In this document: piece after piece, positions 3,494 to 36,868 of the stretch
Numbering within the stretch: position 1 is the first letter of the stretch
How the letters are laid out: each line of letters starts with the position of its first letter
Virus record (IMG/VR): IMGVR_UViG_3300031999_000077
Location: 1-40,422 of that record
Source of the DNA: a virus
DNA: 40,422 bases
Strand: one strand, 5' to 3'
The notes under the pieces: model-generated
Told to the model about the DNA's origin: nothing
Database searches by the model: none
What the model saw: the letters and a program-made list of their open reading frames with translations, nothing else
Translations under genes and position numbers: made by a program

Positions 3494-3799
3494 CTAAATG
3501 GGGAAAGATTTCCTATTGACAGGGTTTGGAATTTTTATGATATCGAAGTTCGGGACGCCCTTTTTTTTAAGCCAAATCTCTTTTTGGCAAAACGCCGGGA
3601 AGGCAATCTTGGTGAGCGTTTCCCGGTCTATTTTCGTGACCATATCCAGATAGATTTTTATTTTCAGAAGCTCGAATTCCCGCGATGCTTCAAGATCAAA
3701 CGGGCCGTCCGAAAAAACCTGGACCCGATAACCGCAGTTTATGAGCAATGCCCTGGCGCGGCATCGGGCTTTATAGAATCGGTTTCGAGTTTCAGTCAT
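3494..3799 (-). CDS. uncharacterised protein with degenerate resolvase/VSR-like pattern
   Basis: 101 residues. The N-terminus RFYKARCRARALLINCGYRV followed by SDGPFDLEAS and a hydrophobic strand LLKIKIYLD loosely recalls the start of PD-(D/E)XK Holliday-junction-resolvase-like folds (helix, 'GY.V', 'G..D', then a strand carrying E/Q-x-K). Here the strand reads K-I-K, so the acidic or glutamine metal residue is missing and activity is doubtful. ATG 3799 overlaps the stop of the XRE gene (ATGA), so they are probably made together. It could equally be an unrelated small alpha/beta protein. Confidence 0.6.
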   Translation of the reverse strand: MTETRNRFYKARCRARALLINCGYRVQVFSDGPFDLEASREFELLKIKIYLDMVTKIDRETLTKIAFPAFCQKEIWLKKKGVPNFDIIKIPNPVNRKSFPI

Positions 3800-5304: not shown

Positions 5305-5534
5305 CGAAAATTCTCTCCTTCTCCATCCGCCTTGCCCTGATAGGCATCGCGGGCGGATTTCCATTCGTTGTCCGAATCCGGCCATTTGCGTAGGCGATCC
5401 ACTGTTAGAAGCTCTGGCCGGAAAGGCTCCTCCTCCATCCTGCTCGCCCTGCCGGACGCGGCCAGGACACCGGCAAGAATAAAGCCGAATACAAAACCGA
5501 CGAAGACCAGGCCGAAGCCAATCAAGTAAATCAT
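5301..5534 (-). CDS. single-pass membrane protein
   Basis: 77 residues. The N-terminal 26 residues (MIYLIGFGLVFVGFVFGFILAGVLA) form one glycine-rich transmembrane helix; the rest is charged and hydrophilic, rich in Asp, Arg and Lys. ATG 5534 overlaps the stop of the duplicated small gene upstream and GAGGAAAC lies before it. Function unknown; an early membrane accessory protein is likely because it is embedded in the small-gene array rather than in the lysis cassette. Confidence 0.65.
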   Translation of the reverse strand: MIYLIGFGLVFVGFVFGFILAGVLAASGRASRMEEEPFRPELLTVDRLRKWPDSDNEWKSARDAYQGKADGEGENFR

Positions 5535-5818
5535 GTTTCCTCCTTGCCGAAGTCGAAGTCGCGGATATCCATTACGAATTCATATAGCTCATTGGATTGT
5601 CCGACCTGACCCACAGAACGTAGGTGTTCATAGCTTGTTATTTTCTCTGCCCTTTTCTGCCACTCCCCCACCTTCTCGATGAGGCGGCGGATGGCATCCT
5701 CAGCCTCGATGCACTTCTTCATTTCCTCGGGTGGACATTGGTCAGCCTGGGAACAATGTTTCCAGCGCCCAAGATAGTCCAGCATTTCCTTCTGTGCCAC
5801 TTCATTCGGCTTTTTCAT
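5531..5818 (-). CDS. duplicated small protein, family copy B
   Basis: 95 residues, helical and charged. Residues 1-55 are nearly identical to the product of 7049-7330, including KPNEV, EMLD(Y/F)LGRWKHC and SQADQCPPEEMKKC with three conserved cysteines. The two diverge after about residue 60. A shorter relative (RKVTRKEMLDVLERIED) begins the product of 5802-6140. ATG 5818 is preceded by AAGGAGGCCGCCG, which is itself coding sequence for the upstream protein's C-terminal KEAADE. The spaced cysteines might bind metal, but function is unknown. Confidence 0.7.
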   Translation of the reverse strand: MKKPNEVAQKEMLDYLGRWKHCSQADQCPPEEMKKCIEAEDAIRRLIEKVGEWQKRAEKITSYEHLRSVGQVGQSNELYEFVMDIRDFDFGKEET

Positions 5819-5831
5819 CGGCGGCCTCCTT
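5657..5831. repeat. direct repeat copy 1 (pair with 7169-7343)
   Basis: A 175-base segment matches 7169-7343 at high identity by eye, with no insertion or deletion. It covers the first half of two paralogous small genes and their ribosome sites. The last part (agcatttcct through the ribosome site) occurs a third time at about 6099-6153. This shows a recent segmental duplication within the small-gene array. Confidence 0.8.
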
Positions 5832-6140
5832 TATTCGCACTCCGGCCTCACCGTCTATTTCCAAGATAGTTTTGCCACATATTTTGCAGACAGGAATTTG
5901 GTTGCCTGACAAGTGACTCTCGATATGTCTGACAAATCTTTCTTCGGTCGTCACCTCCGGCCCATTCTTGATGAGGCGGCGGAGGCTTGCGACGGCTCTT
6001 ATTCTCTCTTCCATAAGCGGAAGCCGGGTTTCTGCCCATTCCCCTTTTTTGATAACCCGAATTTCGTCCCTTGTCTCATCTTCTATGCGTTCAAGTACAT
6101 CCAGCATTTCCTTCCTCGTCACTTTACGCGGCTCACTCAT
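5802..6140 (-). CDS. small protein related to the duplicated family, with CxxC pair
   Basis: 112 residues. The N-terminus SEPRKVTRKEMLDVLERIED matches the start of the duplicated small-gene family, followed by a different helical middle. Near the C-terminus CKIC (about 86-89) and an H-S-H stretch could form a partial zinc knuckle. The final EAADE codons supply the ribosome site AAGGAGGCCGCCG of the next gene. ATG 6140 is likewise preceded by AAAGGAGGCCGCCG. Function unknown. Confidence 0.7.
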   Translation of the reverse strand: MSEPRKVTRKEMLDVLERIEDETRDEIRVIKKGEWAETRLPLMEERIRAVASLRRLIKNGPEVTTEERFVRHIESHLSGNQIPVCKICGKTILEIDGEAGVRIKEAADEKAE

Positions 6141-6152
6141 CGGCGGCCTCCT

Positions 6153-6248
6153 TTAACCCCCTCCCACCTTCCTGCCTCTACGAATATGAATCCAGGGAAA
6201 TACGGCATCGAGCCAAACAAGCCAACCGGGACGCAATAATAAAATCAT
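6153..6248 (-). CDS. 31-codon small ORF, possible membrane peptide
   Basis: A short frame coding a 31-residue product that starts MILLLRPGWLVWLDAVF and ends with a basic glycine-rich tail. ATG 6248 overlaps the stop of the upstream gene as ATGA, with GAGGAAAAG in front, and its stop precedes the next ribosome site directly. It fills what would otherwise be the only gap in this part of the array. The N-terminal 18 residues are hydrophobic and could insert in a membrane. Because it is short, chance is not excluded. Confidence 0.45.
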   Translation of the reverse strand: MILLLRPGWLVWLDAVFPWIHIRRGRKVGGG

Positions 6249-6445
6249 TTCTTTTCCTCATTTGCCTTTTCTGCCCATGTATGTTCATGGTTTTTTGCGG
6301 CCGGACAATAACTTGGATCATTCACTCTTGCCCCATAATCTTTCAACAGCGCATAAAATAGAGTTTCCTTGAGACTTGCCCCACAGGTGGAACATTTTAT
6401 GATTTCTTTCTGGCTCACTCCCACCTCCTCTCTCGGCTCACTCAT
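6245..6445 (-). CDS. small CxxC protein
   Basis: 66 residues starting MSEPREEVGVSQKEIIKCSTCG. A CSTC pair at 18-21 and a distal Cys/His set (Y-C-P, N-H-E-H) could complete a zinc site. The start at 6445 overlaps the TGA of the 37-codon membrane ORF (ATGA), which decides it over the longer frame reaching 6541. The MSEPRE opening echoes MSEPRK and MSEPE in neighbours, suggesting that translation-start regions were copied among these genes. Function unknown. Confidence 0.65.
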   Translation of the reverse strand: MSEPREEVGVSQKEIIKCSTCGASLKETLFYALLKDYGARVNDPSYCPAAKNHEHTWAEKANEEKK

Positions 6446-6555
6446 TTCACCACCACCACAACAATCAAGACCATTAACAGGAAAATAATCGTTCCCAAGC
6501 TGCCACGAATAGCCCCAAGCGAAACCTTGAGATATAACCATTGATTATCACTCAT
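6442..6555 (-). CDS. 37-codon single-pass membrane protein
   Basis: The product begins MSDNQWLYLKVSLGAIRG and continues into a continuous hydrophobic stretch (TIIFLLMVLIVVVVVK) that is long enough for one transmembrane helix ending in lysine. AAGGAGGCCGCCG precedes ATG 6555 and the stop overlaps the next ATG, so it is sandwiched correctly in the operon. The poly-valine tail comes from GTTGTGGTGGTGGTG. Function unknown; the size is typical of small phage membrane proteins. Confidence 0.65.
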   Translation of the reverse strand: MSDNQWLYLKVSLGAIRGSLGTIIFLLMVLIVVVVVK

Positions 6556-6895
6556 CGGCGGCCTCCTTTGCTTTTCTTGTCCTCAACCATTTAGGAATCT
6601 CAATCCAATAATGTCCGCCGCGAATTGATTTTTCCCAACAAAACCCCCAAAAATCATTTTGTTGCAAGGTTTCGATAATATCTTCATTCCCAGACCAGCC
6701 TCCGGTATGAAGCTCCAGCCTCCATGTCGGCTTGCCCATAATATCCTTTTGCCCATTTTTCAGGAGCTTGAATCCCCAATCGGGCCAATGCCAAATTTCC
6801 TCAAGATATTCAATAAGCTCCAAGACAGGATTCTTTAGGACATCAAACTCCCGGATGTATTTCAAGTTTTCCTCAGTCGGGTATTCTTGGCTCAC
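6548..6895 (-). CDS. hypothetical phage protein, tryptophan-rich
   Basis: 115 residues with eleven tryptophans, in clusters such as EEIWHWPDWGFKLL, DFWGFCWE and GGHYWIEIPKWL. It appears alpha/beta and soluble. The pattern of a phage protein with 'W.(I/L)E' strands resembles small replication-associated unknowns, but I do not recognise a family. ATG 6895 lies inside the 3' end of the 59-codon gene. The C-terminal KEAADE codons provide the ribosome site for the 37-codon gene that follows. Confidence 0.7.
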   Translation of the reverse strand: MSQEYPTEENLKYIREFDVLKNPVLELIEYLEEIWHWPDWGFKLLKNGQKDIMGKPTWRLELHTGGWSGNEDIIETLQQNDFWGFCWEKSIRGGHYWIEIPKWLRTRKAKEAADE

Positions 6896-7052
6896 TGGTT
6901 TCCGCCCTTACTTCCTCGATGCTGATTTGAACAACTTCATCTCCGTCTTTAATATAAATCCCGGTAGAAACACAACAACGAGCCCTCCTTGCCGTGGAAA
7001 TTAAATAACGTCCATGTCTTTTCACGCACCACCAATATTCAGGCTCACTCAT
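6873..7052 (-). CDS. 59-residue protein paralogous to the product of 7781-7984
   Basis: The frame begins ATG 7052 overlapping the preceding TGA (ATGA) and codes 59 residues, starting MSEPEYWWCVKRHGRYLI. This matches the start of the 7781-7984 product (MNKPKSWWCIKSGNLLLPF). Both continue into a basic Arg-rich stretch and a strand with I(Y)I or VARIRV. The rest is charged. The WWC(V/I)K signature occurs in small phage proteins of unknown function. The good start context and paralogy make it a real gene despite its length. Confidence 0.7.
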   Translation of the reverse strand: MSEPEYWWCVKRHGRYLISTARRARCCVSTGIYIKDGDEVVQISIEEVRAETSEPRIPD

Positions 7053-7330
7053 CTCTTTTTCCCCTTCCCGAAATCGCGGATTTGAAATAATAGTTTTCCT
7101 GATTCCTGGATATATCGAAAGGCGTCATTCGGATTCCTGCGCACATCTAGCAAATCCTTAGCCGTTCCCTGCCACTCCCCCTGCTTCTCGATGAGACGGC
7201 GGAGGGCATCCTCAACCTCAATGCACTTCTTCATTTCCTCGGGTGGACATTGGTCAGCTTGGGAGCAATGTTTCCAGCGTCCCAAAAAATCCAGCATTTC
7301 CTCCCTCGTCACTTCATTTGGCTTGGTCAT
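7049..7330 (-). CDS. duplicated small protein, family copy A
   Basis: 93 residues starting MTKPNEVTREEMLDFLG. The first 55 residues are nearly the same as those of the 5531-5818 product, including the three cysteines in RWKHCSQADQC and MKKC, and the C-termini then diverge. ATG 7330 with GGAGACCGCTG upstream was chosen over the frame opening at 7378, because the repeat homology begins exactly there. The gene overlaps its upstream neighbour by 17 bases. Charged and helical; function unknown. Confidence 0.7.
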   Translation of the reverse strand: MTKPNEVTREEMLDFLGRWKHCSQADQCPPEEMKKCIEVEDALRRLIEKQGEWQGTAKDLLDVRRNPNDAFRYIQESGKLLFQIRDFGKGKKR

Positions 7331-7343
7331 CAGCGGTCTCCTT
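7169..7343. repeat. direct repeat copy 2 (pair with 5657-5831)
   Basis: The second copy of the 175-base duplicated segment, including the 5' half of a small gene and its ribosome site. Long identical runs such as gcacttcttcatttcctcgg and the following ggtggacattggtcag make an independent origin unlikely. Differences are scattered single bases, many in third codon positions. Confidence 0.8.
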
Positions 7344-7616
7344 CTCTTTTCGCTCCCGTTCCCGCCGATGAACTTCAATCCAAGCCGTAACCTTTTCCAC
7401 GGAACCCCAGCAGCCTGACGGCACTTCGAGATACAGGAATTTGGCGTAGTCGACGATCCTCGCCGTGTTGATAACGTCGGCCTGACCGAGCGCGTGGACG
7501 AAGTCGTTGCAAAGGATTAGGTACAGGAAATCGCCCGGCCTGATTCCGTACTCCAGGTATCGCTGCATCCCCTCCTGTATGTGCTCGGGAAGAATAGAAT
7601 AATTGATTTCTCTCAT
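7314..7616 (-). CDS. hypothetical small phage protein
   Basis: 100 residues, starting MREINYSILPEHIQEGMQRYLEYG, with a helical middle (FLYLILCNDFVHALGQADV) and a charged Arg/Lys-rich tail. The fold looks mostly helical. The pattern 'LP.H...G...Y.E.G..PG.FL..vl.NDl..A...AD' is familiar from small phage proteins of unknown function that regulate nothing known. ATG 7616 has GAGGGAGATTAAG upstream; the longer reading from GTG 7631 would bury that ribosome site. Function unknown. Confidence 0.7.
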   Translation of the reverse strand: MREINYSILPEHIQEGMQRYLEYGIRPGDFLYLILCNDFVHALGQADVINTARIVDYAKFLYLEVPSGCWGSVEKVTAWIEVHRRERERKEKETADDQAK

Positions 7617-16667: not shown

Positions 16668-17106
16668 ACCCCAAAAGATTCATTACTCTATAACCCGCCA
16701 CACTATTCGATGGAAGTTTATATGAAAATCGCTGTTGGCTATCCATCGGTATCCACACAACCGATCCGGTAGCATCATCATCGTCAGCTTGAGTGCTTCT
16801 CAGGATGATATAGGCGGTCGTCTCTCCGTATTTTCCAAATTGAGGAATGGCATTCAGATTGGCTTGGTAATTGCGACATGCGACGGCCATGATAGCCCAC
16901 CGCGCCGTTGCGGAGGTCTGGGCGGTCAAATCGATATCATGCCAGCCCGCGTCCCAGGTAAACGACGCGACCAGGTCCGTCGGCGTGGCAATTTGTATCG
17001 GGGCCGGTGACGGGACATGCCCCCAGATTCCGTGAGCCGCTTTCCAATCCGTGCCGATGTGTCTATCAAGGTCGGATGTTTTAGCGACTTCCGTTTTCTT
17101 CGCCAT
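16660..17106 (-). CDS. probable minor virion protein
   Basis: 148 residues starting MAKKTEVAKTSDLDRHIG, then a beta-rich region with WHDIDLTAQTSATARWAIMAVAC. Such 'D.DLTA.........W...V......G' beta-sandwich patterns occur in phage tail-associated proteins and fibre-type proteins. ATG 17106 shares an A with the preceding stop (TAATG), behind GGAGGTGGTG. It lies directly after the tail-tip gene, so a tail-tip or fibre accessory is likely; no catalytic residues. Confidence 0.6.
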   Translation of the reverse strand: MAKKTEVAKTSDLDRHIGTDWKAAHGIWGHVPSPAPIQIATPTDLVASFTWDAGWHDIDLTAQTSATARWAIMAVACRNYQANLNAIPQFGKYGETTAYIILRSTQADDDDATGSVVWIPMDSQQRFSYKLPSNSVAGYRVMNLLGYV

Positions 17107-20100
17107 TACACCACCTCCGCCGTGATCGATGTTTTCCCCGAACTGATAAGCTTCGATATCCCGAGAATTCGGACCGGAAGATTCGCCGCCGTCCCCGAGA
17201 GCGACGGGAAGCGGGTCCGGTTGAAATAGATCACGTCGCCCGGTAGACAGGTATAGAGAACACGGGGGACGGTGAACGATATCTGTTGCCGCTGCATCAT
17301 GTCGGCGATGGCCGTTCCGAGCGCGGCCGCGTCCGAGGCGTCGGCCAGGGCGACGTAGAGATCGAGACTTTTATTGATGCCGTGCCGCCATGTCATTGTC
17401 GGCCTGAGCGTTTGGCTCAGGGAGTAGATGTCGTTCTGCAGATTCTCGTTATAGTAGACGTTGATCGCCGAGTAAAGTTGGTCTTGGCTCCTGGCCGTCT
17501 GAAAATCGAAGACATGGAGATTCCAAACGTAGGGCGCACCGGAGAGGGGCGTCGTCTGTTCAGCCCTAATCCCGAGCCGCCCCCCGGCGTCCTGCATGGT
17601 GTAGCTCTGGATGGATTGCTCGATCGTCCTGATATATTCCGACGAATTGACCCCGCCTCTCATGTAGAGCGAAAGAGCTGTTGTCTTGGCATACTTCGTC
17701 GCATAGATCGCATCGAGGTCCATATCCGCAAGTGCACATCCGAGGAACGACCGGCAGACATAAAGAAAAATCTCTGCGCCCGTGACGTTGGCTTCATCGG
17801 CGAGATTGACGCATCCCGTAAAACCGATGAGTAAAATATCCGATGATGAATATGATAGTCCGCGTGCGAGCGTCAGGCGCCCGCGTTGGTAGTCCACGAA
17901 GAAGTCCGTGTTCTCGACAAGACTCGTGCCATTCTGTGTTGCCGTCACGGATTTTACCCGCCCATTGTGGAACTCAAAGATGCGGTTTGTCGTATCGATC
18001 TGTGTCGGGACCGCGTTTGTGATGGCACCGAACCCGAACGGCCGCGCCTTGTCCTTCCCACTGGTATCCATGAGCGGGAATGTGTCCGTCGAATAGACCT
18101 CGGACGGAATCGCCTTATTGAGTCCATCCCGGAAGTCCCGGAGATCGAGGCTCATCCGCCGGTCATCAATGGATATGGAATTGACCGAACCCGTGTTGAT
18201 CGTCGCGAACTCCGCATAGGTAAACGCCTCCCCGCCGGCAAGGAGTTTGACTTTGCGGTTGAGCCATAGATACTTCGCATAACGGCGATCGAAGTAGAAT
18301 GCCTTGCGAACCCTGCCGTTGATTAGGCTTACGGTCCCCGACGACACGGCGAAGGTTCCCTCATAGTAGGGTTGGATCGCCTGCGAGATGTCGGGGATGC
18401 CGTCGGCCGCGACGAGCGGGAGGTAGAAGTTCCCGTTATAGATCGTCGCGCCCCTCTGCCAGGTTGTGAAGTGAAGCCAGAACGAGCCCGTAATGAGCGC
18501 GTTGATCGGATCGTCGCCGTCCAGCGTATGGACGTAGACCTTCTTGTTGGCCGTATCATGCCAGTAAGTCCCGGCGGTCGCTTCAACGGTTACGATAGAG
18601 GTTCTGGCCGCGAGTGCGACGCCATTCTCGTAGGCCGCGTCGAGGGCCGCGCCATCCTCGTCGAACGCCGCTTCGTAAGTCACCCCCGAAGTCAGCGTCC
18701 AGCCGGTGAGCTCCATGAGCGGGTTCGCCTCGACGAGGAAGATGAGTTTCGGTTTTGACTTGCGGATGAGCTTCTCGAACTTCGAGGGAAGATACGCTGC
18801 CCGCGTCGTCTGCGTAACCGGGGACGTATAGCCCGAATTCCCGGCGCCGCTGTAGGCCCGGATTTTAAACCCGTAAAGGATAGAGGCCGTAAGTCCGGTT
18901 TTTTTGAACGACTCAATCCCGGCGTCGATCCGGGCGATTTCCGCATAGGCCCCGCCGCTCGTATTCATTTCGATGGAGTAACCGACCTCCCCAGATGTTT
19001 TTACCCAAGTGATCTTAATCCATGTATCTTGATACTCCGAGACGGCAAGCCCCGTCGGGGCCGCTGGCACGTCGGGGACGGCGATTTCGGCTTCGTTGCT
19101 GTAGGACGAATAGGTGGATGCCCCCTGTTTCGCCCGAACTTTATAGGTATAGGTCGTCCCGGCCGCCGCCGTGGCGTCATGGTAGTAAGTACGGTTCGGG
19201 GCCAGGGTCACAAGCTCCGCATAGGCCCCGGTTGTTTTCCTCTCAATGATGTGGCTGTCCTCAAGTTCGCTGTTGTCCTCGAAAATGCACTCGACGCCAT
19301 AGGCCCCGCCGACCTTCGCCGCCGTACAGACGAGGTTCGTCGGCGCCGCGATGGCCGCCCAAGTGACGGCCGTGGCGACGTTCGAATAGGCCGAGTAACC
19401 CGAGGCATTGTGCGCCCGGACGCGGTACCAATACTGCGTGTTCGAAGTACGTCCCGTATCCCCGTAGGTCTTGACGTTCGCGCCGACGGTCCCAATCTGC
19501 GAAAAGTCCGCCGTGCCCGAGGTTGCACTTCGCTCGACATGGAAGTCAATCTCGTTGTCGGAGTTATCCGTCCAGTTGAGCTGAACCTTCGTCGTTGCCG
19601 TGGGCGTTGCCGTGAGACCGGAGGGCTTCGCCGGAGGATCGGCCATCGTCAGACTAAGTGTGTTTGATGGTGAGGAGAGGCCCGCCGCCGCGTTATAGGC
19701 CTTGATATAAAAAGTATAAGTCGCGCCCGGCGTCAGTCCCGTCGCCGTGTAAGCTTCGGCATTGGCCGCCGTCGTGTAAAGAAGTACTCCATTCTTATAG
19801 ACCTTGAATGATGCCTCATTCTGCGAATTATCATTCCACGTTAGCGGAGCCTCCGTCCCGCCCGCGTTCGAGTATCCTGATAGGCCCGATGGGGCAGGAA
19901 GTTGCGTCGTCGCATTCGCCTCATTGGAAAAGGGCGAGAATTCTTCACCTATATATGCTTCTAATTTGTAATAATATTTTGTACCATCCGCAAGTCCTGA
20001 ATCCAGCCAGGAAGTAACACCGCCACCGGTCTGGTGGACAGCAGCATAGGAACCGCCCGCCGGTTTCCTGTAAACGAGAATACCATCATAGGCGCCGTTA

Positions 20101-23954: not shown

Positions 23955-25316
23955 TCAACCAAGATAGTCTTCGCTTCTTGAATTCATTAATTGACCAACG
24001 ATCGGGACCAGGATGCCCGTCATGCCTATCGGCGCAGAATCGGCGGTCATGGCCCGCAGCGCAATCTTAGCCGGGATGATCTTCGAATCGGCGTACTCAA
24101 CGTCCTCGATGATGAGGCGCGGGAGCTGGAACTTTAGGTAGAAATTGTACGCGCCCTCGATGACCGGGCCGGTGATGGTCAGGTCCGCTTTCTTTTCCGC
24201 CCCGGCGATCCAGGCTGCGAAATAGGCCGCGTTCACGGTGTCCATCCGCGCAAAGTCCATCGTCAACTTGACGCTCGGCTTATCGTTCTCCGCCGGCTCG
24301 ATGATTGTCTGGACTCCGGCCACATGCTCGCTGTCCATTTTCCGCTCAATATCCAGGGTAAAGGATTTCGGTCGGACGATATCCCCGTCCACGAAGTCGT
24401 CCCCAGTCTGGGCGTTCATCCGAAAGACGGCCTGGGCGAATTTGGCCCGGGCGTGGGTATTGCCCGTGATCGTCGTGGACGTAAATGCCGCCGGGAGTGC
24501 CGAGTCATCCATAACCCGAATGCCGCGCAGATTGAACGCCGCCTTGATGAGTCCGGCGCTCATAGAGAACGTGCCCTTCAGGACCTTGAACGTCGGGACG
24601 GTGTGGATCTTCGTGCCCTTCTCCGTCGCGTATGTCCCAAAGATCCCCGCAACCGTGTTCAGGAGGACGAAGGAGTGAAGGTAATTAAGCGCCCCGCCGA
24701 TCGCATTTGCGGACGACGTATAGGTTATTTCCCCGCTCAGGTCGGCCGCAAACCCCAGGAGGGTGTCGGCCGCCTGCGCATTATTCGTGCCGGTGTTCCA
24801 CCAGAGCTTAAAAGGCGCGGTTGTGGCGATTGTGAACCTGTGGGTATTCGCATTAAAATTGACATCGTAGGTTAAGGCCCCGTTGGAGAGGGCTTCGAGC
24901 TTCGCCTTGATGTCCGCGCGGATTTGGGTTACCGTCCAGGTTCCGTTCGCCAATACCGCATTCTTTTCACCCCCCGCCGCCTCCTCGAAGTCGATGTGGT
25001 GGTTCGCGTTGCTCACGATGGAATACATCCCCGGCACCCCGGCCGTCCCCATGAGCATGGCGAGCAGGAGATTTTCGCGCCCATCCCATCGGTAGTCAAA
25101 ATCCAGTCCGAAGTCGGAGGGGTTGATGAACCCGGCGTCCAGATTGGCCTCGAAAGCCCCGTAGCTTTCATCCTCCATCATCTGTACCGCCGCCTTCGGC
25201 GACCCGGGGTTCAGGGGTAGGAACCCCATGCCGGCCGCATCGGTATTGACGGCCGTCCCCCAGATCGCGGCCTTTTTGACCGCTGCCTTGTTTAACCGCT
25301 TTTCAATATCTCCCAT
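23955..25316 (-). CDS. tail tube protein paralogue with inserted domain
   Basis: 453 residues, starting MGDIEKRLNKAAVKKAAIWGT. It shares the whole framework of the 346-residue neighbour (FGLDFDYRW, FKVLKGTFSMSAGLIK(A/V)AFNLRG, NDKPSVKLTMDFARMD, VEYADSKIIPAKIALRAM). Inserted at about 105-205 is an extra domain (NHHIDFEEAAGGEK to SGEITYTSS, including FKLWWNTGTNNA) that occurs again in the head connector 36865-37782. Virion tail tubes can carry Ig-like or other decorations on outer loops. AAGGAGACTTAC precedes ATG 25316. It is either a second tube subunit or a tube-related tail protein. Confidence 0.82.
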   Translation of the reverse strand: MGDIEKRLNKAAVKKAAIWGTAVNTDAAGMGFLPLNPGSPKAAVQMMEDESYGAFEANLDAGFINPSDFGLDFDYRWDGRENLLLAMLMGTAGVPGMYSIVSNANHHIDFEEAAGGEKNAVLANGTWTVTQIRADIKAKLEALSNGALTYDVNFNANTHRFTIATTAPFKLWWNTGTNNAQAADTLLGFAADLSGEITYTSSANAIGGALNYLHSFVLLNTVAGIFGTYATEKGTKIHTVPTFKVLKGTFSMSAGLIKAAFNLRGIRVMDDSALPAAFTSTTITGNTHARAKFAQAVFRMNAQTGDDFVDGDIVRPKSFTLDIERKMDSEHVAGVQTIIEPAENDKPSVKLTMDFARMDTVNAAYFAAWIAGAEKKADLTITGPVIEGAYNFYLKFQLPRLIIEDVEYADSKIIPAKIALRAMTADSAPIGMTGILVPIVGQLMNSRSEDYLG

Positions 25317-25326
25317 GTAAGTCTCC

Positions 25327-26367
25327 TTATGCGATCAGGCTGGCTACGCGAAGGTTGGTCAGGAAAATGCCGATGGGCAGGATGCCCGTAAGGCCCGTCT
25401 GGGCCACGTCCGCCGCCAGGCCCCGAAGGACAATCTTCGCGGGGATGATCTTGCTGTCCGCGTACTCCACGTCCTCGACAACAAGGTGCGGGAGCTGGAC
25501 GTTTAAAACATAATTATAGCCCGCTGCGGCCAATGGCCCGGTCACGATGATGTCGGCCTTCTTGTCCGTCGGCGCCGTCCAGGCCGCGAAGTAGGCGGCG
25601 TTCGTCGCGTCCATGCGCGGGAAGTCCATCGTAAACTTCACGGCCGGCTTGTCGTTCTCGACGGGTTCGAGGATGACCTGGCCTCCGGAAACGTGCTCCG
25701 CGTCCATCTTGCGTTCGATTTCAAGCGTAAACATCTTCGGCTTGATGATGTGGCCGGCGCCCAGGGTGATGCCCCCGCCCGCGAGCGTATAGTCGTTCAT
25801 GCGGAATACGGCCTGCTGGAACTTCGCCCGGATGTGCGAATTGGCCGGGACGGTCGTCGAACCCAGTGTCGCCGTCGCGTCCGCGGTCTCGCTTCCCCTT
25901 AGGTTAAAGGCCACCTTGATCAGACCTCCGCTGGTCGAGAAGGTCGCTTTCAGAACCTTGAGCGTGGGGACGGTATGGACCTGCGCCCCCTTCTCTACGG
26001 CATAGGACGCAAACAACCCGAACGCGGAATTCGCCAGGGTGATCGTGTGCAGATAGGCCGCCGTACCGCCCTGTGGCGCCGGGGACGTATCGACGCCCAT
26101 CAGGAGACCCAGAAGAATGTTCTCCAGGCCGTCCCAACGGTAATCGAAGTCCAGGCCGAAATCGGACGCCCCGAAAACGCCAACATCGAGGTTCGCCTCG
26201 AATGCCCCCGCCGCCTCGTCCTCGATCATCTGGACGTTCCGCTTCGGCGTGCCGGGGTTCAGCGGGAGGATGCCGTTGCCCGCGCCGTTCAGGCCGGCAA
26301 TGACCGTACCCCAATCCGTCGCCTTCATGAGGGCCGCCTTGTTTAATCTTTTTTCGATATCGCCCAT
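25327..26367 (-). CDS. tail tube protein
   Basis: 346 residues, the simpler member of a tandem pair. Beta-rich with NLDVGVFGASDFGLDFDY and long repeats of the tube-type beta-sandwich (ATFSTSGGLIKVAFNLRG, KPAVKFTMDFPRMD). It lies directly before the paralogue and after the small tail genes, the usual place for major tail protein. GGAGGATAAC precedes ATG 26367. Which copy forms the tube cannot be told from sequence; abundance data would be needed. Confidence 0.8.
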   Translation of the reverse strand: MGDIEKRLNKAALMKATDWGTVIAGLNGAGNGILPLNPGTPKRNVQMIEDEAAGAFEANLDVGVFGASDFGLDFDYRWDGLENILLGLLMGVDTSPAPQGGTAAYLHTITLANSAFGLFASYAVEKGAQVHTVPTLKVLKATFSTSGGLIKVAFNLRGSETADATATLGSTTVPANSHIRAKFQQAVFRMNDYTLAGGGITLGAGHIIKPKMFTLEIERKMDAEHVSGGQVILEPVENDKPAVKFTMDFPRMDATNAAYFAAWTAPTDKKADIIVTGPLAAAGYNYVLNVQLPHLVVEDVEYADSKIIPAKIVLRGLAADVAQTGLTGILPIGIFLTNLRVASLIA

Positions 26368-26564: not shown

Positions 26565-27044
26565 TTAGACTCCCATAACTCCCGCGATTGATATTCTGAC
26601 CTTCTGGTCGAAAAAGCCCATACCCTCAAGGCTCAGATATCCGTCGTCCGTCTCGGGGCTTTCTTCGATCCGCGTCTCCACGGCCAGCGCGCCAAGGCTC
26701 CCGGCCGCCCCGCTCCGCGAGTCCGCGTCGATGGCCTTCCTAATGTCGGCGATGCAGTTTTCCAGCCGCGTCACGGTATCCACGCTGTCCTTGACCCATC
26801 CCTTAATCGAAACGAAAAAATCCTCAGTGTACTCGGAGGCATCCCCCGCCGCGCCGCTGAGCTCGATCGTGCCGCCGGAGCCGGTGAACACCATGTAGGT
26901 CGGGAACGACTTCGCCTCGGCCCAATGGACGAAGCGCTTGATGACGGCGCCAGGGGTGTAGAAGTACGTCGCGCCCGTCGAGATTCCTTGAAGGACCGCG
27001 ACGATGCGGTTAATAACCTGAAGGCGGAGCGGTATGGCCGGCAT
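26565..27044 (-). CDS. probable tail terminator/tail completion protein
   Basis: 159 residues with the alpha/beta layout of tail terminators (gpU/gp17-like): N-terminal helix (LRLQVINRIVAVLQ), strands with FPTYMVFTGSG and SEYTEDFFVSIKGWV, then a helix (TRLENCIADIRKAI) and strands at the end (KVRISIAGV). Placement between connector and tail tube genes supports this. TAATG overlap joins it with the previous gene. The family assignment rests on pattern and order. Confidence 0.68.
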   Translation of the reverse strand: MPAIPLRLQVINRIVAVLQGISTGATYFYTPGAVIKRFVHWAEAKSFPTYMVFTGSGGTIELSGAAGDASEYTEDFFVSIKGWVKDSVDTVTRLENCIADIRKAIDADSRSGAAGSLGALAVETRIEESPETDDGYLSLEGMGFFDQKVRISIAGVMGV

Positions 27045-29067: not shown

Positions 29068-29442
29068 TTACGCCACGTCCCTTATTTCGTCCACGTCGGT
29101 CGCCGGGAAGTTGACCAGGTTGCCGTTCGTCAACACCTGGCTCGTCAAGGTTCCGACCAGAAGCAGCGTCGTTGTGGCCTCGATGCCAAGAGCATAATGC
29201 GTCGCCGTCCCGTCGTGATCGACGGTGAATCCGTTTTGGGCCGCGAGAATGAGCTTCCGGCCCGATGTGTCCCCATTGGCCTTCGAGAAGTCGCCGCCGG
29301 TCAGGATGTGGGTTGCCAGATCAACCGTGTCCCGAGCATTAGCATAGCTCGACGGTTCAGCCGAGCAGATGAAAAGCCGGGTGGCCGCTCCAATCTGATC
29401 CAGCATCAGATCGATGATCGCATCCGGAATAAGTTTTGCCAT
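29068..29442 (-). CDS. small conserved virion-region protein
   Basis: 124 residues starting MAKLIPDAIIDLMLDQIG. The N-terminal helix is followed by beta strands with ATRLFICSAEPSSYANA and TATHYALGI. This 'MAKLIPDA..D.ml..i..A' protein is common in phage tail and fibre regions with no assigned function. GGAGGATAAC precedes ATG 29442. It separates the repeat fibre from the giant beta-helix gene; a virion role is inferred from position only. Confidence 0.65.
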   Translation of the reverse strand: MAKLIPDAIIDLMLDQIGAATRLFICSAEPSSYANARDTVDLATHILTGGDFSKANGDTSGRKLILAAQNGFTVDHDGTATHYALGIEATTTLLLVGTLTSQVLTNGNLVNFPATDVDEIRDVA

Positions 29443-29457
29443 GTTATCCTCCTAAGT

Positions 29458-32400
29458 TTATTTGATTATGCTCAATAACCATCCCTTCGGGATTAACGTA
29501 AATGCCGCCGCGCCGCTTGCGAATCCCTCGGGCCGGGTGGCGATGACGTTTCCCGTGCGTGCGCCCGAAGGCACACGGAAGGTGAGTACGGTATCGGCCC
29601 AAGTTAGCACCGTCGCAGATATACCATTAACCGTCACCGTTCCTGCCGATGCCCCGAACGCAGTCCCCGTCAATGTGAGTGTTGCGCCCGTTCGCGCCTT
29701 GTTTGGCGTAAGACTCGTTATCGCGGGATAGACAAACTCATACGCCCCGATATCTGGCGCACTGCCTTGCGGAACGCTCGTCCCCGCATAATCTTGCGTC
29801 AGCCCGACATTCGTCCCCGCGTTGATGCAGGGGGAGATGGGCTGGGGGGTGAAGTCGGGTGTTACGATAGACACAAATTTCGGGTCGGCGTTGACGCTGT
29901 TGACATCATTCCCCAATGCCTGCCATTGGGCAAAGTTGTAATCGGCTACCCCGCTGATAGTAAATTTTGGAGCATTGACTCCTGTATAAAAGCAGTTGTA
30001 ATTGATATCCAATCCGGTGCGGGTTTCCCCGCCCTCCATCCATATCAGGGTATTGTCGGCAAAGTCGCTGTAAAAGATATTGTTCTTTACTATTGTATCT
30101 ATTTGGTCATCAGCCAAAGAAACGCAACTCTTATATTTGTAAACCGTATTATTAAGAATCTGAAGGTTATCTACGGCGAATCCATACGGTGGCCCAGGAA
30201 CGCCTTCCCACCTGAAAAGACTAAATGCATATCCCGAAGTGTTGTCCGTTCCGTCTATGATATTGTATCGCCAGGTTATATCTTGCCCCCCATCACAGGC
30301 AAAGGCCGTCCCGAGAGGCTTGAGGTAATTATGTTCCCAAATAATATCATTACAAAACCAATCGCCCTTGAATCCGGCGGCATCTCCGGTGCTGGTGTTT
30401 CCCTGGACTAAGACATCTTCAATGTAGTCGGTGGGACTGTTTCCGCTTATATTTAAGGCGAATCCAGTTCCCCCATCTGGTACACACGCTATCCCATTAT
30501 CAATAAATTCATTGTCCAAAATTTGAAGCCCGGTCGAAACCCCGTGTCCCGATGTGGCGAATCCCCCAAGACCAGCCGCAAGTCCGTGAGTGTACGCCTG
30601 TCGGATAGTGCAACGCTGGACTATGAGATCATCAAATTCCCCGGAAGCGGTATCAATCCAGACGTTGTGTCCGTTGGATTTTCTGAGCCCTAAATCCTGA
30701 ACGGTTATATAACTCTTGTTGTTGAGGCTAATACACATCGCCCAATAGCCCGCCTCGATGGTATGGGCAGTCGGATCGTCATATAGATATATCCTGGTAT
30801 TTACCGTGTCGTCATACCATTCACCAGTAACCAACGATGCCTTAGATGTGGTATTCTTAGTAAGAAGCGTATCATCAAAAAATACTTGATTAGGCTGTAT
30901 CGAATAGGAGACATTCCATTGGTCAAGTGCCTTCACGGTATGACCGGAAGGGTTGTCATAGATATAAATCCTGCTGTTTCCGGTGTCCTTGAACCATTCT
31001 CCCGTTGCGAGGGTTTCTTTAGACACCTCATTTTCGACCATAAGAACGTCATCGTAATACATCGCTGTCGGCGCTTCGGTGTAAGTGGCATAATAGGGGA
31101 GTGCCCCGCCCTGATAAAGCTTGATGCCCATTTCATAGGTTGCATAATTGGATGCGGATGTTTTGTTTCCATACCAATTTACATAATTTCCCGACCATGA
31201 ACTGCCCGTGGTATCTACATAGAGAGATAAGCAATTAGTTCCATCATACGAAGAATCTGATCTCCTGATAATAAGTCCGTATGAGTTTCCATTAACGATT
31301 GCGGCATTCATGCCAGTAAATTTTACTACTCCCACACCAGTTACTAATTGTGCGGCTGACGCACCGACAAGCGTCCCCAAGCTGGTCCCGTCCATGTTAT
31401 AAATTTCAGCAACAACATTTTGGCTGAACGTCCCCCACTCATAACTGAACTCCACCTCTAATGCGCTAATGGTATAATTATTATCGGCAACCCAGGCCCC
31501 TTGACCGACATATATCCTTGAATCGAGGCTAAAAACTTTAATGCCCGCATTATTAGTTGGTTTATTAAGGACTACCGTCTCCCCTTCTGCCGTCCAGGTG
31601 GAGTAGGTTACACGCTCCAAAAATCCGGTATAGATGTTTGAACCGTTGATAATTGGCTTCTCCCCCGTCCCATACGCCCCGAAGGTGATGGGCAGGCCAG
31701 CAGAACCAGAGGAGGGAACGAGCAGACGTTCGCGCCAAGTTTCGCCGCGCTTGAAATCTATATTATCGCCCCCATAGAACGTCGTAGCGTTTACCTTGGC
31801 TATCGTCTTCCAGGCCAGGGCTTCAGTCAGGCCGGTGTCGCTGTCAAGCCCAGTAGTGAAGTCAACATAATAAGTGACGGCGAGGCCGGTCCCAGTCAAG
31901 GCGATATCATAGGGGTTCTCGTCTGTATCGTTATTCCCAATAGCAATCGCCGCCACCTTTGCCCCTGGAGAAGTAGGGCTGAATCGAAGGGTAAAATGGA
32001 CATGCGCACTTCCTGCAATCGGGGTCGTCGGTTGCGCCTGGACACTAAATTGGTTAGCGTTAGTCCCTGTAATTGTGATAATCGGAGTTCCACTTAAAGT
32101 CAGATTCTCATCTCCGGGGTTTTCTATCGTGAACGTCTGGTCTGTATCGCTTCCCCTTGTCTTGGAGCCGAAGGCAAAGGTCCCACCGTCCTGAATGTTG
32201 GTAGAATCGTATTTAATGTTTATTTCCGATTCACCCACACCACCCTGATATTCATGGGCTCCTATATCCGGTGCGCCACCAGTGGGTACAGGGTTGCCCC
32301 AATAGTCTTCGATCAGGCCAACATTAACTCCGGTATCGCGGCAGGGGGAATCTATGACAATTTCATAATCCACAGCGGTTGTCCCACCGGCATTGGCAAA

Positions 32401-35400
32401 ATCGGGATTCTCCCACTTCCCGTTAGTGTCCCATCCGGTATCTGTCTTGTATTGAGCGAAATCATCAGAATGATAAGAGACTCCTGCGATATAAGTATAT
32501 CTTTGCACGCCTCCCCCAGTATTGTACCAGCAGTTGTAATCACAGGCATCTATGGAACTGGCAAGCTCGGCCGTAAAAGCAGCTTTCAATAAATTATTCT
32601 GTACGGCGATGTTGTTTTTGACCGTGACATGAGTTACCAAAGAGTCAACGTATATTCTGGACTCAACATCAGTAAGAGGATGGTGGTCATAAACGGTATT
32701 ATTGTACAGATAAACATAATCACAATAATCGAGAACCGAAATCCCCACTCCACACGCACGTCTGACAATATTATATGCTACAGTAGTATTTGTAAGTGTC
32801 GAAGCGGCATTTCCAGACGGTTGAATTCCAGCCATGCTATACGCAGGACTCGCGAAATCATCCGTTGTATAAACATAGTTCCGCAAGACAGAGGTGTTGG
32901 TCACTGTGCCGCCGGCATTCGGGCCCATTATGTCTATTCCGGTGTGATAGCAGTTATAGATTTCATTTCCGCTAACGGTAACATTGGTCGTGGTCTGGCC
33001 CGTTGTTCCCCCTACAACATAAATCCCGTGTGTCCCTGCATCATAAATCAAATTATTTGATACAGTTGAATATGAACCCCTGATGACAATACAATTAGCA
33101 TCTGCCGCATCCCAGGCTCCGGCATGATGGAGCGTACAGGAATCTATCGTTGCGTTAGTCCCAGTTACGCCGTTTTTTATCGCAGACGCAGCAACATAGG
33201 CGACTTCTATATCCTGAATAGTGATGTACGACTTTGTCGAAAATTCGATGCCGTAACTCCTGGCCGCATTTTCAACCGAAGCATATCTCGAATCTGGGTC
33301 GGTAGCGGCATAGACATAAAGTCTATCGTTGGGATCATCCCACCACCAGTCATATTCAGCAGTTAGGGTAGCTTTTGAGGCTTTTTCCCTACCCCATTTA
33401 ATTGATCCGTCGGTATTGATAAACCAAACTACCGTAGGGTCAGCGGTGCAGGTTGCGTACCATCTATTGGGTGTCGGACTACCCTTGAAGGTGGCAATCA
33501 ATCCGCCGCATTTTACAGCTGTTGTCCAGGTATATGTCGTTTCGTACGCTCCGGTTGCGGCGGTGACTCTGGTAGCCAGCGAGTGATTTGTACCATGTTT
33601 CGACTCGACAAAGGAATTAGTGTAACTTACCGCGTTTCCGGTTGCCCCACTCATCCAAAATCCGGCAATACATAATTCCACGGCAGCGGTCGTCGTAGGT
33701 GTCGTTCCGCTTGACCAAGCCGTAACGTTAGCGCCGCTATAAGTGTTATACTGAACCTGATCGAGTACCGGACTTGATAAACCGGAATATTCCGCAATTT
33801 CCATGGCCGTTGACGTACTTCCTGTCCAGACAACAACCACATCCTTGCTTTCGCTTGCTCCCGCAACCTTATAAAATAGGGCCGTCCACGAAGTTGAACT
33901 CATCTGGACACCGACAGCTTTGGTAAATCCGGATATAGAAGCATTGGTATCCGATCCTACTCCCTTGGCGAAAGCCAAAAGCAGATTTCCCTGGGTAGGA
34001 GTATTAGTATACGATGTTGTTACAGTATCTGCGCTGGCTGAGTTATAAGCCCAGTCCTGGACCTTAGTGATAGTCTCAGAAACCTCTTCAGTCCACGTCG
34101 AGAGTTGCTCCGATCCATAAATCTTCGGCTTATCCCCTGTCCCAAATGCCCCGAAGGTAATGGGATGGCCCGATGTACCGGATGAGGGGACGGTCAACTG
34201 TTCACGCCAGGTCTGTCCCTTGCGAAAATAGATGATATCGTCAGGAACGAATGTGCGGGCGTTTACGTCTGCTATTGTCTTGAAAACAAAATCAGTACCT
34301 GTACTCGTAGAAAAGGTAACGGGATTATAAGTCGTGAAGTCGGGCGTAGCACTCCCGACGTAGGTATCCGTGATTGATGAGTCGACATAATAGACGGCAT
34401 TGACTCCCGTATATTCATGGCCGCCCATGTCGGGATCATCGCCTCGCGCAGTTTCAAAATAATCTTCAGTGACTTCCGCAAGTACAACCGCCGCCCCGAT
34501 TGCCGGTGAAGTATATAGAATCTTGAAATAATTAGCCGTGAGTGTACCAGCACCCGATGGGGGAGTCTTGGCTACCTTGGGGTCACCGACCACATCGCCA
34601 GTCCCCTGAGCTGCCGCGATAGGCGTCTTGCTCCAGCAATTATAGGAAAAAGTCAGCCCCGAATGCGAGGACTCAACATAGATTGGGACGCGCTGCGAAT
34701 CTTCCTCAATGACTATGTTGTTTGTGAATACGCAGTCAATATAGGATGTAGTATCCGGCCTAATAAAAACACCCATGTTATAACCCTCACCGATGTTTCC
34801 GGTAGAATTGATGAAGGTATTATAGGCACAGAAAAACCCGTTGAGTTCTGCCGTACCCGTATAAGTTTCCATGTTGATGCGGCAGTTGTAGACGAAATTA
34901 TTGTAAACGGCTATGTCATAGGGGGTTCCCGTTTCGCATGAGATTGTGATGCCAGCCGTATTTGAATAAGCCGGTTTGGTATTATAAACGATATTCCGCC
35001 TGACTATCGTATGCGTGGGTGAATCTATGTAAATATTGTAGTTTTGTTTAGTGTTGTAGACGATACAATCTTCGATGATGGAATAAGTCGCGCTGGAATA
35101 GGCGTTAAGACCCTCGCCCATATTCTCATAAGAGATACAATTCTTGATGGTTCCATGAGAACCAACTGTGGCAATCCCGGAACCCCACGGAATAGCCACA
35201 AGTCCATTTTCCGTCATAGTACAACCGTCAAATGTGTTATAGGATCCACCCAAGCACATCCCGGCTTGGTAACATCCATTGCCAAAAATGTTATAACCCG
35301 TATTGTGATTCCCCGCGATGGCAAAGAGCGCACCATCTGATCGAGTAAAAGTCATATTGCTGATCGTCGTATAAGCGCCCTGCAACTCTACCAAGTAATA

Positions 35401-35751
35401 ATCATATCCAATGCCGGGTAGGGTATATTCACCATCAACGATAACTTCTTCATCACCATAATTCGTCACGGTTATTGGGCTACCGGATGTCCCGACAACA
35501 TCTAAGTAAATACGTTCATGGTATGTCCCCGCCCGAACCTCAATCGCGTCTCCGGCGGAAATGTGGGCATTGGCATAGGTGAATGTCAACCACGGCCCAT
35601 TTGTTCCGCTCACCCAGGCCGGGGCAAGTCCATCCCAAGAGTTATTGCCAGCCGTGGAGACGTAGTAGGTCGTACCAGCAGCGTGAAGAAACGGATTGCA
35701 AAGGCAAGCCAAAAATGCGATTATCAGAAAAGCCCTTGAAAATCTGTGCAT
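29458..35751 (-). CDS. giant exported right-handed beta-helix protein (2097 residues)
   Basis: From ATG 35751 the first 25 residues (MHRFSRAFLIIAFLACLCNP) are a Sec signal peptide with an AA-like cleavage site. Three parallel beta-helix modules begin near residues 30, 452 and 1294, with openings like YYVSTAGN or YYVDSS/YYVDFT and ends like APDIGAHEY, APDIGAYEF or DPDMGGHEY. Between them are a Hydin/Spd-2-type domain (about 1178-1290) and lectin-like inserts (about 575-775 and about 1360-1540); an IPT/TIG domain (about 2007-2085) closes the protein. The start at 35751 puts seven bases between AGGAGC and the ATG. Such architectures bind or cut polysaccharides on bacterial surfaces; here the phage context is unusual. 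Sites for catalysis are not evident. Confidence 0.82.
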   Translation of the reverse strand: MHRFSRAFLIIAFLACLCNPFLHAAGTTYYVSTAGNNSWDGLAPAWVSGTNGPWLTFTYANAHISAGDAIEVRAGTYHERIYLDVVGTSGSPITVTNYGDEEVIVDGEYTLPGIGYDYYLVELQGAYTTISNMTFTRSDGALFAIAGNHNTGYNIFGNGCYQAGMCLGGSYNTFDGCTMTENGLVAIPWGSGIATVGSHGTIKNCISYENMGEGLNAYSSATYSIIEDCIVYNTKQNYNIYIDSPTHTIVRRNIVYNTKPAYSNTAGITISCETGTPYDIAVYNNFVYNCRINMETYTGTAELNGFFCAYNTFINSTGNIGEGYNMGVFIRPDTTSYIDCVFTNNIVIEEDSQRVPIYVESSHSGLTFSYNCWSKTPIAAAQGTGDVVGDPKVAKTPPSGAGTLTANYFKILYTSPAIGAAVVLAEVTEDYFETARGDDPDMGGHEYTGVNAVYYVDSSITDTYVGSATPDFTTYNPVTFSTSTGTDFVFKTIADVNARTFVPDDIIYFRKGQTWREQLTVPSSGTSGHPITFGAFGTGDKPKIYGSEQLSTWTEEVSETITKVQDWAYNSASADTVTTSYTNTPTQGNLLLAFAKGVGSDTNASISGFTKAVGVQMSSTSWTALFYKVAGASESKDVVVVWTGSTSTAMEIAEYSGLSSPVLDQVQYNTYSGANVTAWSSGTTPTTTAAVELCIAGFWMSGATGNAVSYTNSFVESKHGTNHSLATRVTAATGAYETTYTWTTAVKCGGLIATFKGSPTPNRWYATCTADPTVVWFINTDGSIKWGREKASKATLTAEYDWWWDDPNDRLYVYAATDPDSRYASVENAARSYGIEFSTKSYITIQDIEVAYVAASAIKNGVTGTNATIDSCTLHHAGAWDAADANCIVIRGSYSTVSNNLIYDAGTHGIYVVGGTTGQTTTNVTVSGNEIYNCYHTGIDIMGPNAGGTVTNTSVLRNYVYTTDDFASPAYSMAGIQPSGNAASTLTNTTVAYNIVRRACGVGISVLDYCDYVYLYNNTVYDHHPLTDVESRIYVDSLVTHVTVKNNIAVQNNLLKAAFTAELASSIDACDYNCWYNTGGGVQRYTYIAGVSYHSDDFAQYKTDTGWDTNGKWENPDFANAGGTTAVDYEIVIDSPCRDTGVNVGLIEDYWGNPVPTGGAPDIGAHEYQGGVGESEINIKYDSTNIQDGGTFAFGSKTRGSDTDQTFTIENPGDENLTLSGTPIITITGTNANQFSVQAQPTTPIAGSAHVHFTLRFSPTSPGAKVAAIAIGNNDTDENPYDIALTGTGLAVTYYVDFTTGLDSDTGLTEALAWKTIAKVNATTFYGGDNIDFKRGETWRERLLVPSSGSAGLPITFGAYGTGEKPIINGSNIYTGFLERVTYSTWTAEGETVVLNKPTNNAGIKVFSLDSRIYVGQGAWVADNNYTISALEVEFSYEWGTFSQNVVAEIYNMDGTSLGTLVGASAAQLVTGVGVVKFTGMNAAIVNGNSYGLIIRRSDSSYDGTNCLSLYVDTTGSSWSGNYVNWYGNKTSASNYATYEMGIKLYQGGALPYYATYTEAPTAMYYDDVLMVENEVSKETLATGEWFKDTGNSRIYIYDNPSGHTVKALDQWNVSYSIQPNQVFFDDTLLTKNTTSKASLVTGEWYDDTVNTRIYLYDDPTAHTIEAGYWAMCISLNNKSYITVQDLGLRKSNGHNVWIDTASGEFDDLIVQRCTIRQAYTHGLAAGLGGFATSGHGVSTGLQILDNEFIDNGIACVPDGGTGFALNISGNSPTDYIEDVLVQGNTSTGDAAGFKGDWFCNDIIWEHNYLKPLGTAFACDGGQDITWRYNIIDGTDNTSGYAFSLFRWEGVPGPPYGFAVDNLQILNNTVYKYKSCVSLADDQIDTIVKNNIFYSDFADNTLIWMEGGETRTGLDINYNCFYTGVNAPKFTISGVADYNFAQWQALGNDVNSVNADPKFVSIVTPDFTPQPISPCINAGTNVGLTQDYAGTSVPQGSAPDIGAYEFVYPAITSLTPNKARTGATLTLTGTAFGASAGTVTVNGISATVLTWADTVLTFRVPSGARTGNVIATRPEGFASGAAAFTLIPKGWLLSIIK

Positions 35752-35778
35752 CACCATGCTCCTAAGTAAAGGGTTAGG

Positions 35779-35798
35779 GGGCGTGATAGCGCCCCCGC
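35779..35798 (-). terminator. GC hairpin before the giant gene
   Basis: GGGGGCG (35779-35785 on plus) and CGCCCCC (35792-35798) form a 7-bp perfect stem with a six-base loop in the 50-base gap between the exported 161-residue gene and the giant gene. On the minus strand it is followed by TAACCCTTT rather than a U-run, so it is at best a weak terminator. It could instead be an RNA processing or stability element that lowers expression of the 6.3 kb gene. Confidence 0.4.
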
Positions 35799-36304: not shown

Positions 36305-36868
36305 TTAAGCCAATTTCCCGACGGAGCTCCCCGCCATCATCTCCGCAAGCCTGAGGACCGCTGGTTTCTGCATCATGGCCGAAAGGATCGGCTCCCGCTG
36401 CTCGATGATCGAGGTAAACCACTTCGAAGGCGGGATGACAACATTAAGCTTTGACTTCTTAGTAAGCGCGAGCCACTTGTACCGTTCTTCTCCCCACTTG
36501 GAGTACATAAACCAGGCCCATCCTCGCATCCGTTTCGTGACGGTCGGGTGGGTTGTCCCGCCCTTGTCCTGAATGCTGGCATAGGGAACCGTTTGCTTGC
36601 CCCCGATCCCCGTCCCGATGGCGATGGTCCAGCGCTCGTCGCCCACGGCAATGACCTTTCCAATATTGCGCATCATCTGGCTCGTCTTTTTTGCGTGATG
36701 AACGCGAACCGATATCTGCCTGTCCCTCGCCGAATCCATGAGTGCCTTGATCGTCTGGGAAGTCCAATCTGTGGCCTGATATTTATGCGCTTTGGGGAGT
36801 GCCTTCAGGATTTCTGTCTTTCGGATTGCGCCCGCGAAGTCCGCCTTGAGTCCGATTCCGGTTGTCAT
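36305..36868 (-). CDS. HK97 gp10-like head-tail protein
   Basis: 187 residues. The segment TVPYASIQDKGGTTHPTVT and the N-terminal helical region (KALPKAHKYQATDWTSQTIKALM) match the HK97 gp10 family, whose typical motif is 'YA.i.E.Gg'. These proteins complete the head-tail junction. ATG 36868 overlaps the upstream TGA (ATGA), so the longer frame to 36982 is not used. A Trp/Tyr-rich C-terminal half (RGWAWFMYSKWGEERYKWL) is longer than usual for the family. Confidence 0.75.
   Translation of the reverse strand: MTTGIGLKADFAGAIRKTEILKALPKAHKYQATDWTSQTIKALMDSARDRQISVRVHHAKKTSQMMRNIGKVIAVGDERWTIAIGTGIGGKQTVPYASIQDKGGTTHPTVTKRMRGWAWFMYSKWGEERYKWLALTKKSKLNVVIPPSKWFTSIIEQREPILSAMMQKPAVLRLAEMMAGSSVGKLA

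Follow-up and report, generated by a model that had tools for sequence, protein, structure and literature searches.

The 40,422-bp virus record analysed here (the window), read mostly from its minus strand, carries two adjoining genes in its structural operon whose products both begin with a predicted signal peptide: a small beta-sandwich protein and a very large beta-helix protein. Judging from sequence, the pair is probably an accessory, Sec-exported, glycan-interacting module that acts on host-type glycans from outside the cytoplasm, either during late infection or when the cell lyses.

A gene pair between the head and tail genes

The pair and its surroundings comprise the following features, the basis being given in brackets.

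38894: major head protein
36865: head-tail adaptor
36305..36868, minus strand: conserved left border of a variable slot, HK97 gp10-like by position (start set by comparison with contig L015)
35802..36287, minus strand: small partner, 161 aa, predicted signal peptide (MRERKSIFIAIILTLAMSVLASA, followed by QY) and beta-sandwich (signal-peptide rule, AlphaFold2, relatives)
35777..35796, no strand: G+C-rich hairpin between the two genes of the pair
29458..35751, minus strand: large beta-helix protein, predicted to be exported, 2097 aa (open frames, Pfam, NCBIfam, AGGAG before the start)
29068..29442, minus strand: 124-aa protein, also in the variable slot (conserved as well in contigs L017 and G049 and in Microcystis phage Mae-JY22)
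27337..29058, minus strand: 573-aa repeat protein of the variable slot (open frame, sibling comparison)
26565..27044, minus strand: tail terminator, conserved right border of the slot (sibling comparison)

The longest open frame of the large gene spans 29458-35757 on the minus strand (2099 aa); the start at 35751 is likelier, because AGGAG lies 7 nt before its ATG. Contig L002, whose DNA is 93% identical, independently confirms the 3' part of the gene and the gene order downstream. The large gene is flanked by head-completion genes on one side and tail genes on the other, which agrees with the placement in the virion operon made by the first-pass annotation; its minus-strand orientation and the putatively exported partner gene directly upstream were absent from that annotation. 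The two genes have GC3 values of 0.49 and 0.59, compared with 0.56-0.82 for twelve other genes measured, and this low GC3 fits mobility. Promoter-like sites near the pair, within the structural operon of the window, did not exceed chance. The hairpin was considered as a terminator and rejected, as terminator-like matches in the region were no more frequent than the chance count.

A recurrent cassette with an exchangeable large partner

The small protein has relatives in 11 further contigs (L005, L006, L007, L010, L011, L012, L100-L103 and L204), L012 being from a Candidatus Aminicenantes assembly; a search of 50,697 records of phage isolates gave no match. The contigs that carry the small protein represent at least six phage lineages, both siphovirus- and podovirus-like (by layout the window is siphovirus-like, L100 podovirus-like, as is L003, a contig with a relative of the large protein), and in every one of them its gene is located in the head-gene region. 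Few or no other genes are common to these contigs, except within the groups window/L010, L006/L007/L012 and L011/L204.

The next large gene encodes a signal peptide in ten of ten readable cases (the window, L005, L006, L007, L010, L011, L012, L100, L204 and L101/L102, with L101 and L102 counted once), an association that is not phylogenetically independent, the beta-helices of L007 and L204, for example, being similar. L103, which ends before the partner gene, was left out of this count, and L006 has an additional membrane-type frame between the small and the large gene. In the window, L005, L006, L007, L100 and L204, the large partner is a beta-helix (for L005, L006, L007 and L204, a call made by eye from partial frames); the partners in L010, L011, L012 and L101/L102 are fibre-like. 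The L010 fibre matches tail-spike (E 1e-8) and virion-structural (8e-6) PHROGs, and the L102 fibre has a weak tail-fibre PHROG match (0.001). Because the L101/L102 copy of the small protein has no signal peptide, this protein is not exported in every case. The pair is a recurrent cassette in which the large partner can be swapped.

Two frames elsewhere in these contigs and their relatives also carry signal peptides. In L080, a fibre-like frame (6209-6655) directly follows the major capsid gene with no small protein, a possible variant; in L100, a protease-like frame (17057-17866; GDSGG motif, by eye) lies near the lysis end of the contig.

Predicted signal peptides of the large proteins

The N-terminus of the window protein, MHRFSRAFLIIAFLACLCNPFLHA followed by AG, satisfies a simple rule combining n-, h- and c-regions with the -3/-1 positions (the signal peptidase I pattern). 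The rule detects four of six textbook signal peptides and is therefore specific rather than sensitive; 2.6% of shuffles of the same N-terminal residues pass it. Among the preferred starts of the 52 minus-strand frames of the window, only those of the large gene, the small partner and a spanin-like lipoprotein gene at 2347 pass. In both cassette genes, the n/h/c structure and AxA-type sites recur in at least six lineages. The Sec signal peptide read by the first-pass annotation looks real and is retained in divergent relatives.

We compared this with homologous fibres from a scan with the L010 fibre (79 loci), excluding that fibre itself and requiring a complete start. With every start within 40 codons considered, not one of the resulting 58 fibres has an N-terminus that resembles a signal peptide, in line with the premise that phage structural proteins normally lack one, and the signal peptides missed by the rule are too few to account for this absence. 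In contigs with a related major capsid protein (MCP), the background was 11 passing genes of 909, several of them plainly false. Three beta-helix relatives that are not accompanied by the small gene (L004, L018 and L008) are untagged as well. A Fisher test of the ten tagged partners against these 61 untagged proteins gives 2e-12, a value that is descriptive only, because the sequences are related. Target proteins of phage diversity-generating retroelements likewise lack the signal peptides of their bacterial counterparts (PMC6199706).

Domain architecture of the large protein

The 2097-aa protein divides as follows.

35680..35751, minus strand: signal peptide, residues 1-24, cleavage between LHA and AG (n/h/c and -3/-1 rule)
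34387..35679, minus strand: beta-helix module 1, residues 25-455, end DMGGHEY (homology to modules 2 and 3; relative in L003)
32224..34386, minus strand: beta-helix module 2 with insert, residues 456-1176, end DIGAHEY (Pfam, NCBIfam, homology)
33427..33921, minus strand: insert domain in module 2, residues ~611-775 (common to L003 and L018)
31918..32223, minus strand: choice_anch_D (Hydin-like Ig) domain (NCBIfam NF012200)
29734..31887, minus strand: beta-helix module 3, end DIGAYEF (homology; choice_anch_Q)
29542..29727, minus strand: C-terminal IPT/TIG domain (Pfam PF01833)

The mosaic described in the first-pass annotation was largely confirmed. The three choice-of-anchor-Q-like modules, whose end motifs stand in the above order at residues 441, 1162 and 2000, are mutually homologous (modules 2 and 3, E 3e-33; 1 and 2, 1e-5; 1 and 3, 4e-5). 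Pfam finds Beta_helix (E 1e-21) and TIG (1e-7), and NCBIfam choice_anch_Q (9e-19; 67 bits versus a cut-off of 25) and choice_anch_D (7e-15), so that the Hydin-like and IPT/TIG domains are both upheld; module by module, choice_anch_Q scores above the cut-off in modules 2 and 3 and below it in module 1. The proposed lectin-like inserts exist, at residues ~611-775 and ~1380-1600, and a search for a lectin match to them found none. A domain shared between the module 2 insert and the N-terminus of gene 27337 is suggestive only, not significant (E 3.4; 0.009 via L003).

Neither Pfam nor PHROGs gave a virion attachment domain in the large protein, and Pfam gave no match to Gp80. No outer-membrane passage signal was seen in it, and neither it nor the small partner has a lipobox. 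An AlphaFold2 model of module 2 reached a mean pLDDT of 51, confidence being limited to the helix core (~80-90); its fold matches, all weak (TM 0.2-0.45), are to a Klebsiella K1 capsule lyase, the HK620 tailspike and polysaccharide lyases. At the sequence level, the protein matches XylC and LnbX. Membership of the GH120 enzymes was rejected: the XylC nucleophile, D382, is not conserved in the aligned set, which makes enzyme activity doubtful.

The small partner retains ~138 residues after the predicted cleavage site. In its AlphaFold2 model (mean pLDDT 80), a helix at the N-terminus accompanies a beta-sandwich, and the protein shows a weak resemblance (TM ~0.4) to TNF-like lectins and carbohydrate-binding modules (CBMs), and its matches in a viral library are mainly uncharacterised phage and C1q-like proteins. 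It is perhaps a lectin-like docking unit.

Siblings, untagged relatives and the question of capture

Sibling phages were chosen by capsid protein, and the slot was defined as the stretch from the gp10-like gene 36305 to the tail terminator 26565. The pair is accessory: in L017 and the Aminicenantia contig G049:C403 it is absent, and the slot is limited to the genes for the 124-aa protein, the repeat protein and a 98-aa protein. In L010 the slot combines the small protein with a tagged fibre and a further two genes of membrane type. In L018 a beta-helix that lacks a signal peptide occurs there beside a Gp80-type and a glycosyltransferase-like gene, and in a prophage on the 1.29-Mb contig G063:C12 nothing recognisable is present.

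Relatives without a signal peptide, one part of what the first-pass annotation had named as counting against its reading, were found in L018, of the same phage group, and in L004, where the untagged beta-helix and the virion domain Gp80 'fiber I' form a single fusion protein (E 2e-28 for Gp80; PDB 8jou weak, E 0.019). On this evidence the large protein descends from, or alternates with, virion-type spikes, its family switching between a virion-type and an exported-type role. The 124-aa protein 29068-29442 was tried as a Gp80 homologue and rejected (no Pfam match; hhalign probability 1).

The same annotation had seen a bacterial adhesin captured by the phage. The accessory insertion and the low GC3 are in keeping with this, and a simple recent capture is not supported: the close relatives of the protein lie in other phages (54-56% identical in L003), and in Aminicenantia genomes the local matches are weak, at 29% identity across the C-terminal half or 53% across 59 residues. 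On these grounds, a recent origin from the host was rejected.

Two observations concern the neighbours of the untagged beta-helices. The repeat protein downstream of that in L018 (9230-12604) retains choice-of-anchor-Q end relics (PDIGGYEYQG, PDIGAYEYQG and PDIGAYENQR), which suggests recombination between repeat and beta-helix genes. Glycosyltransferase- and methyltransferase-like genes (by eye) adjoin the untagged beta-helix in L004 (3866-5563) and L018 (5893-6951).

Host group

Over several structural genes, the window DNA is 66-83% identical to Aminicenantia genomes, the G063 prophage included, and the capsid protein is 28-32% identical. The host group is probably Aminicenantia. The window also encodes an endolysin, which together with the spanin-like lipoprotein indicates a diderm host.

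A possible role outside the cytoplasm

The sequences themselves show that the pair is accessory, that conserved signal peptides occur on both genes, that the large partners are interchangeable and that virion-type relatives exist. A mechanism that would accommodate these findings is as follows. Both proteins would be made late, alongside the virion proteins, a timing supported by the late-operon position and the lack of promoter signal above chance. Sec would carry them across the inner membrane and, given AxA-type sites and no lipobox, signal peptidase I would cleave both, leaving the products in the periplasm or beyond; with no outer-membrane passage signal seen, a protein of ~2000 residues might not leave the periplasm before lysis. 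The large interchangeable partner (a beta-helix here, fibre-like elsewhere) would bind or cut host-type surface glycans, with the small beta-sandwich protein as its constant companion; the link to glycans comes from the sequence matches to XylC and LnbX, from the weak fold matches to a capsule lyase, a tailspike and polysaccharide lyases, and from the likeness of the small protein to TNF-like lectins and CBMs. From here we infer export itself, a periplasmic or later location, glycan binding or cleavage, timing and benefit. One option is that the pair masks or trims a glycan used as receptor by the phage family, which would block superinfection and spare progeny from being lost on debris; a precedent for this benefit is T5, whose purified receptor-binding protein pb5, when added to cells, blocks infection (PMC9586334). 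Another is release at lysis, followed by sticking to virions or matrix. Matrix degradation and virion anchoring, also put forward in the first-pass annotation, would be further candidate roles.

Three other readings, which overlap with one another and with the exported module, were weighed. If the large protein were an ordinary head fibre or tailspike, its N-terminal hydrophobic stretch would be no working signal peptide and the protein would be built into virions in the cytoplasm. The virion-type proteins that also occupy the slot, the untagged L018 beta-helix and the Gp80 fibre domain in L004 all point this way; we nevertheless find it improbable in view of the signal peptides with AxA-type sites on both genes across the lineages, their absence from homologous fibres, and the fact that Gp80 is neither detectable in the window protein nor significantly aligned with its 124-aa neighbour. 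An exported protein could still be a true virion part if the tagged fibre docked, after lysis, on released particles via the small partner. This is unlikely, as no docking domain is seen in the window protein and no described precedent was found in the literature searched, even though virion-type homologues, the constant beta-sandwich partner and the Gp80 fusion in L004 would suit it.

The position of the genes within the structural operon, with no promoter signal above chance, and the failure to recognise an integrase among the window proteins searched also make it improbable that they are a lysogenic-conversion (moron) pair, through which a lysogen would export proteins to alter its own surface independently of the lytic cycle. 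In favour of such a pair are the low GC3, the presence or absence among siblings, the related prophage in an Aminicenantia chromosome and a repressor-like gene at 3796 in the window, and surface-acting phage morons are known (PMC9928086). Extending the exported-module reading beyond the window, it is conceivable, if somewhat short of probable, that tailed phages of Aminicenantia-like hosts use a transferable cassette to export receptor-binding-type spikes or fibres through Sec together with the dedicated small partner, as surface decoys or trimmers or for docking on virions after lysis.

Relation to known systems

The superinfection-exclusion lipoproteins T5 Llp, T1-type Cor and Rtp45 are already known as phage proteins that are exported and whose genes are close to those for receptor binding; in T5, the gene for the receptor-binding protein is immediately followed by that for Llp (PMC9586334, PMC12685063). 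All are small and have a lipobox, whereas in the cassette the signal peptides are of the soluble type and a beta-sandwich protein accompanies a large beta-helix or fibre. The lambda morons lom and bor also provide accessory exported surface proteins (PMC9928086). They differ from the cassette in that Lom forms a barrel in the outer membrane, Bor is a lipoprotein, and neither is fibre- or spike-like with a partner gene. The lom gene lies within the tail-gene region of lambda.

The HK620 tailspike and Klebsiella capsule depolymerases share with the window protein a right-handed beta-helix and a location among structural genes; the window protein differs in its signal peptide and three tandem modules. 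Tailspikes and depolymerases of this type have no signal peptide and possess virion-binding heads. The podophage GP4 fiber I domain (Gp80, PF23140), which occurs alone in L004 and L018 in addition to the L004 fusion, was not detected in the window. Bacterial secreted choice-of-anchor Q/D proteins have the same domain content and a signal peptide; the window protein is unlike them in its phage late operon and its phage-borne nearest relatives.

Spikes and fibres of tailed phages are thought to fold and assemble in the cytoplasm. The literature searched contained no description of Sec-tagged tailed-phage fibres, or of a constant exported partner with interchangeable Sec-tagged spike- or fibre-like proteins. 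If the exported-module reading is true, it would represent a second use of receptor-binding-type proteins, and an export-based strategy by which spike proteins act on the host surface in a previously undescribed way. It would also be a new source of glycan-active proteins that are exported. The small beta-sandwich family would serve as a marker for finding such systems in phages of a bacterial group that has almost no cultured members.

Other duplications in the window

At the major tail protein position, the window has two tandem homologous genes (23955-25316 and 25327-26367; DNA 74% identical over 128 nt), both of which are also found in L002, L010 and L017. In the early region (5531-7378), a gene start is present in three diverged copies (DNA repeats D1 and D2).
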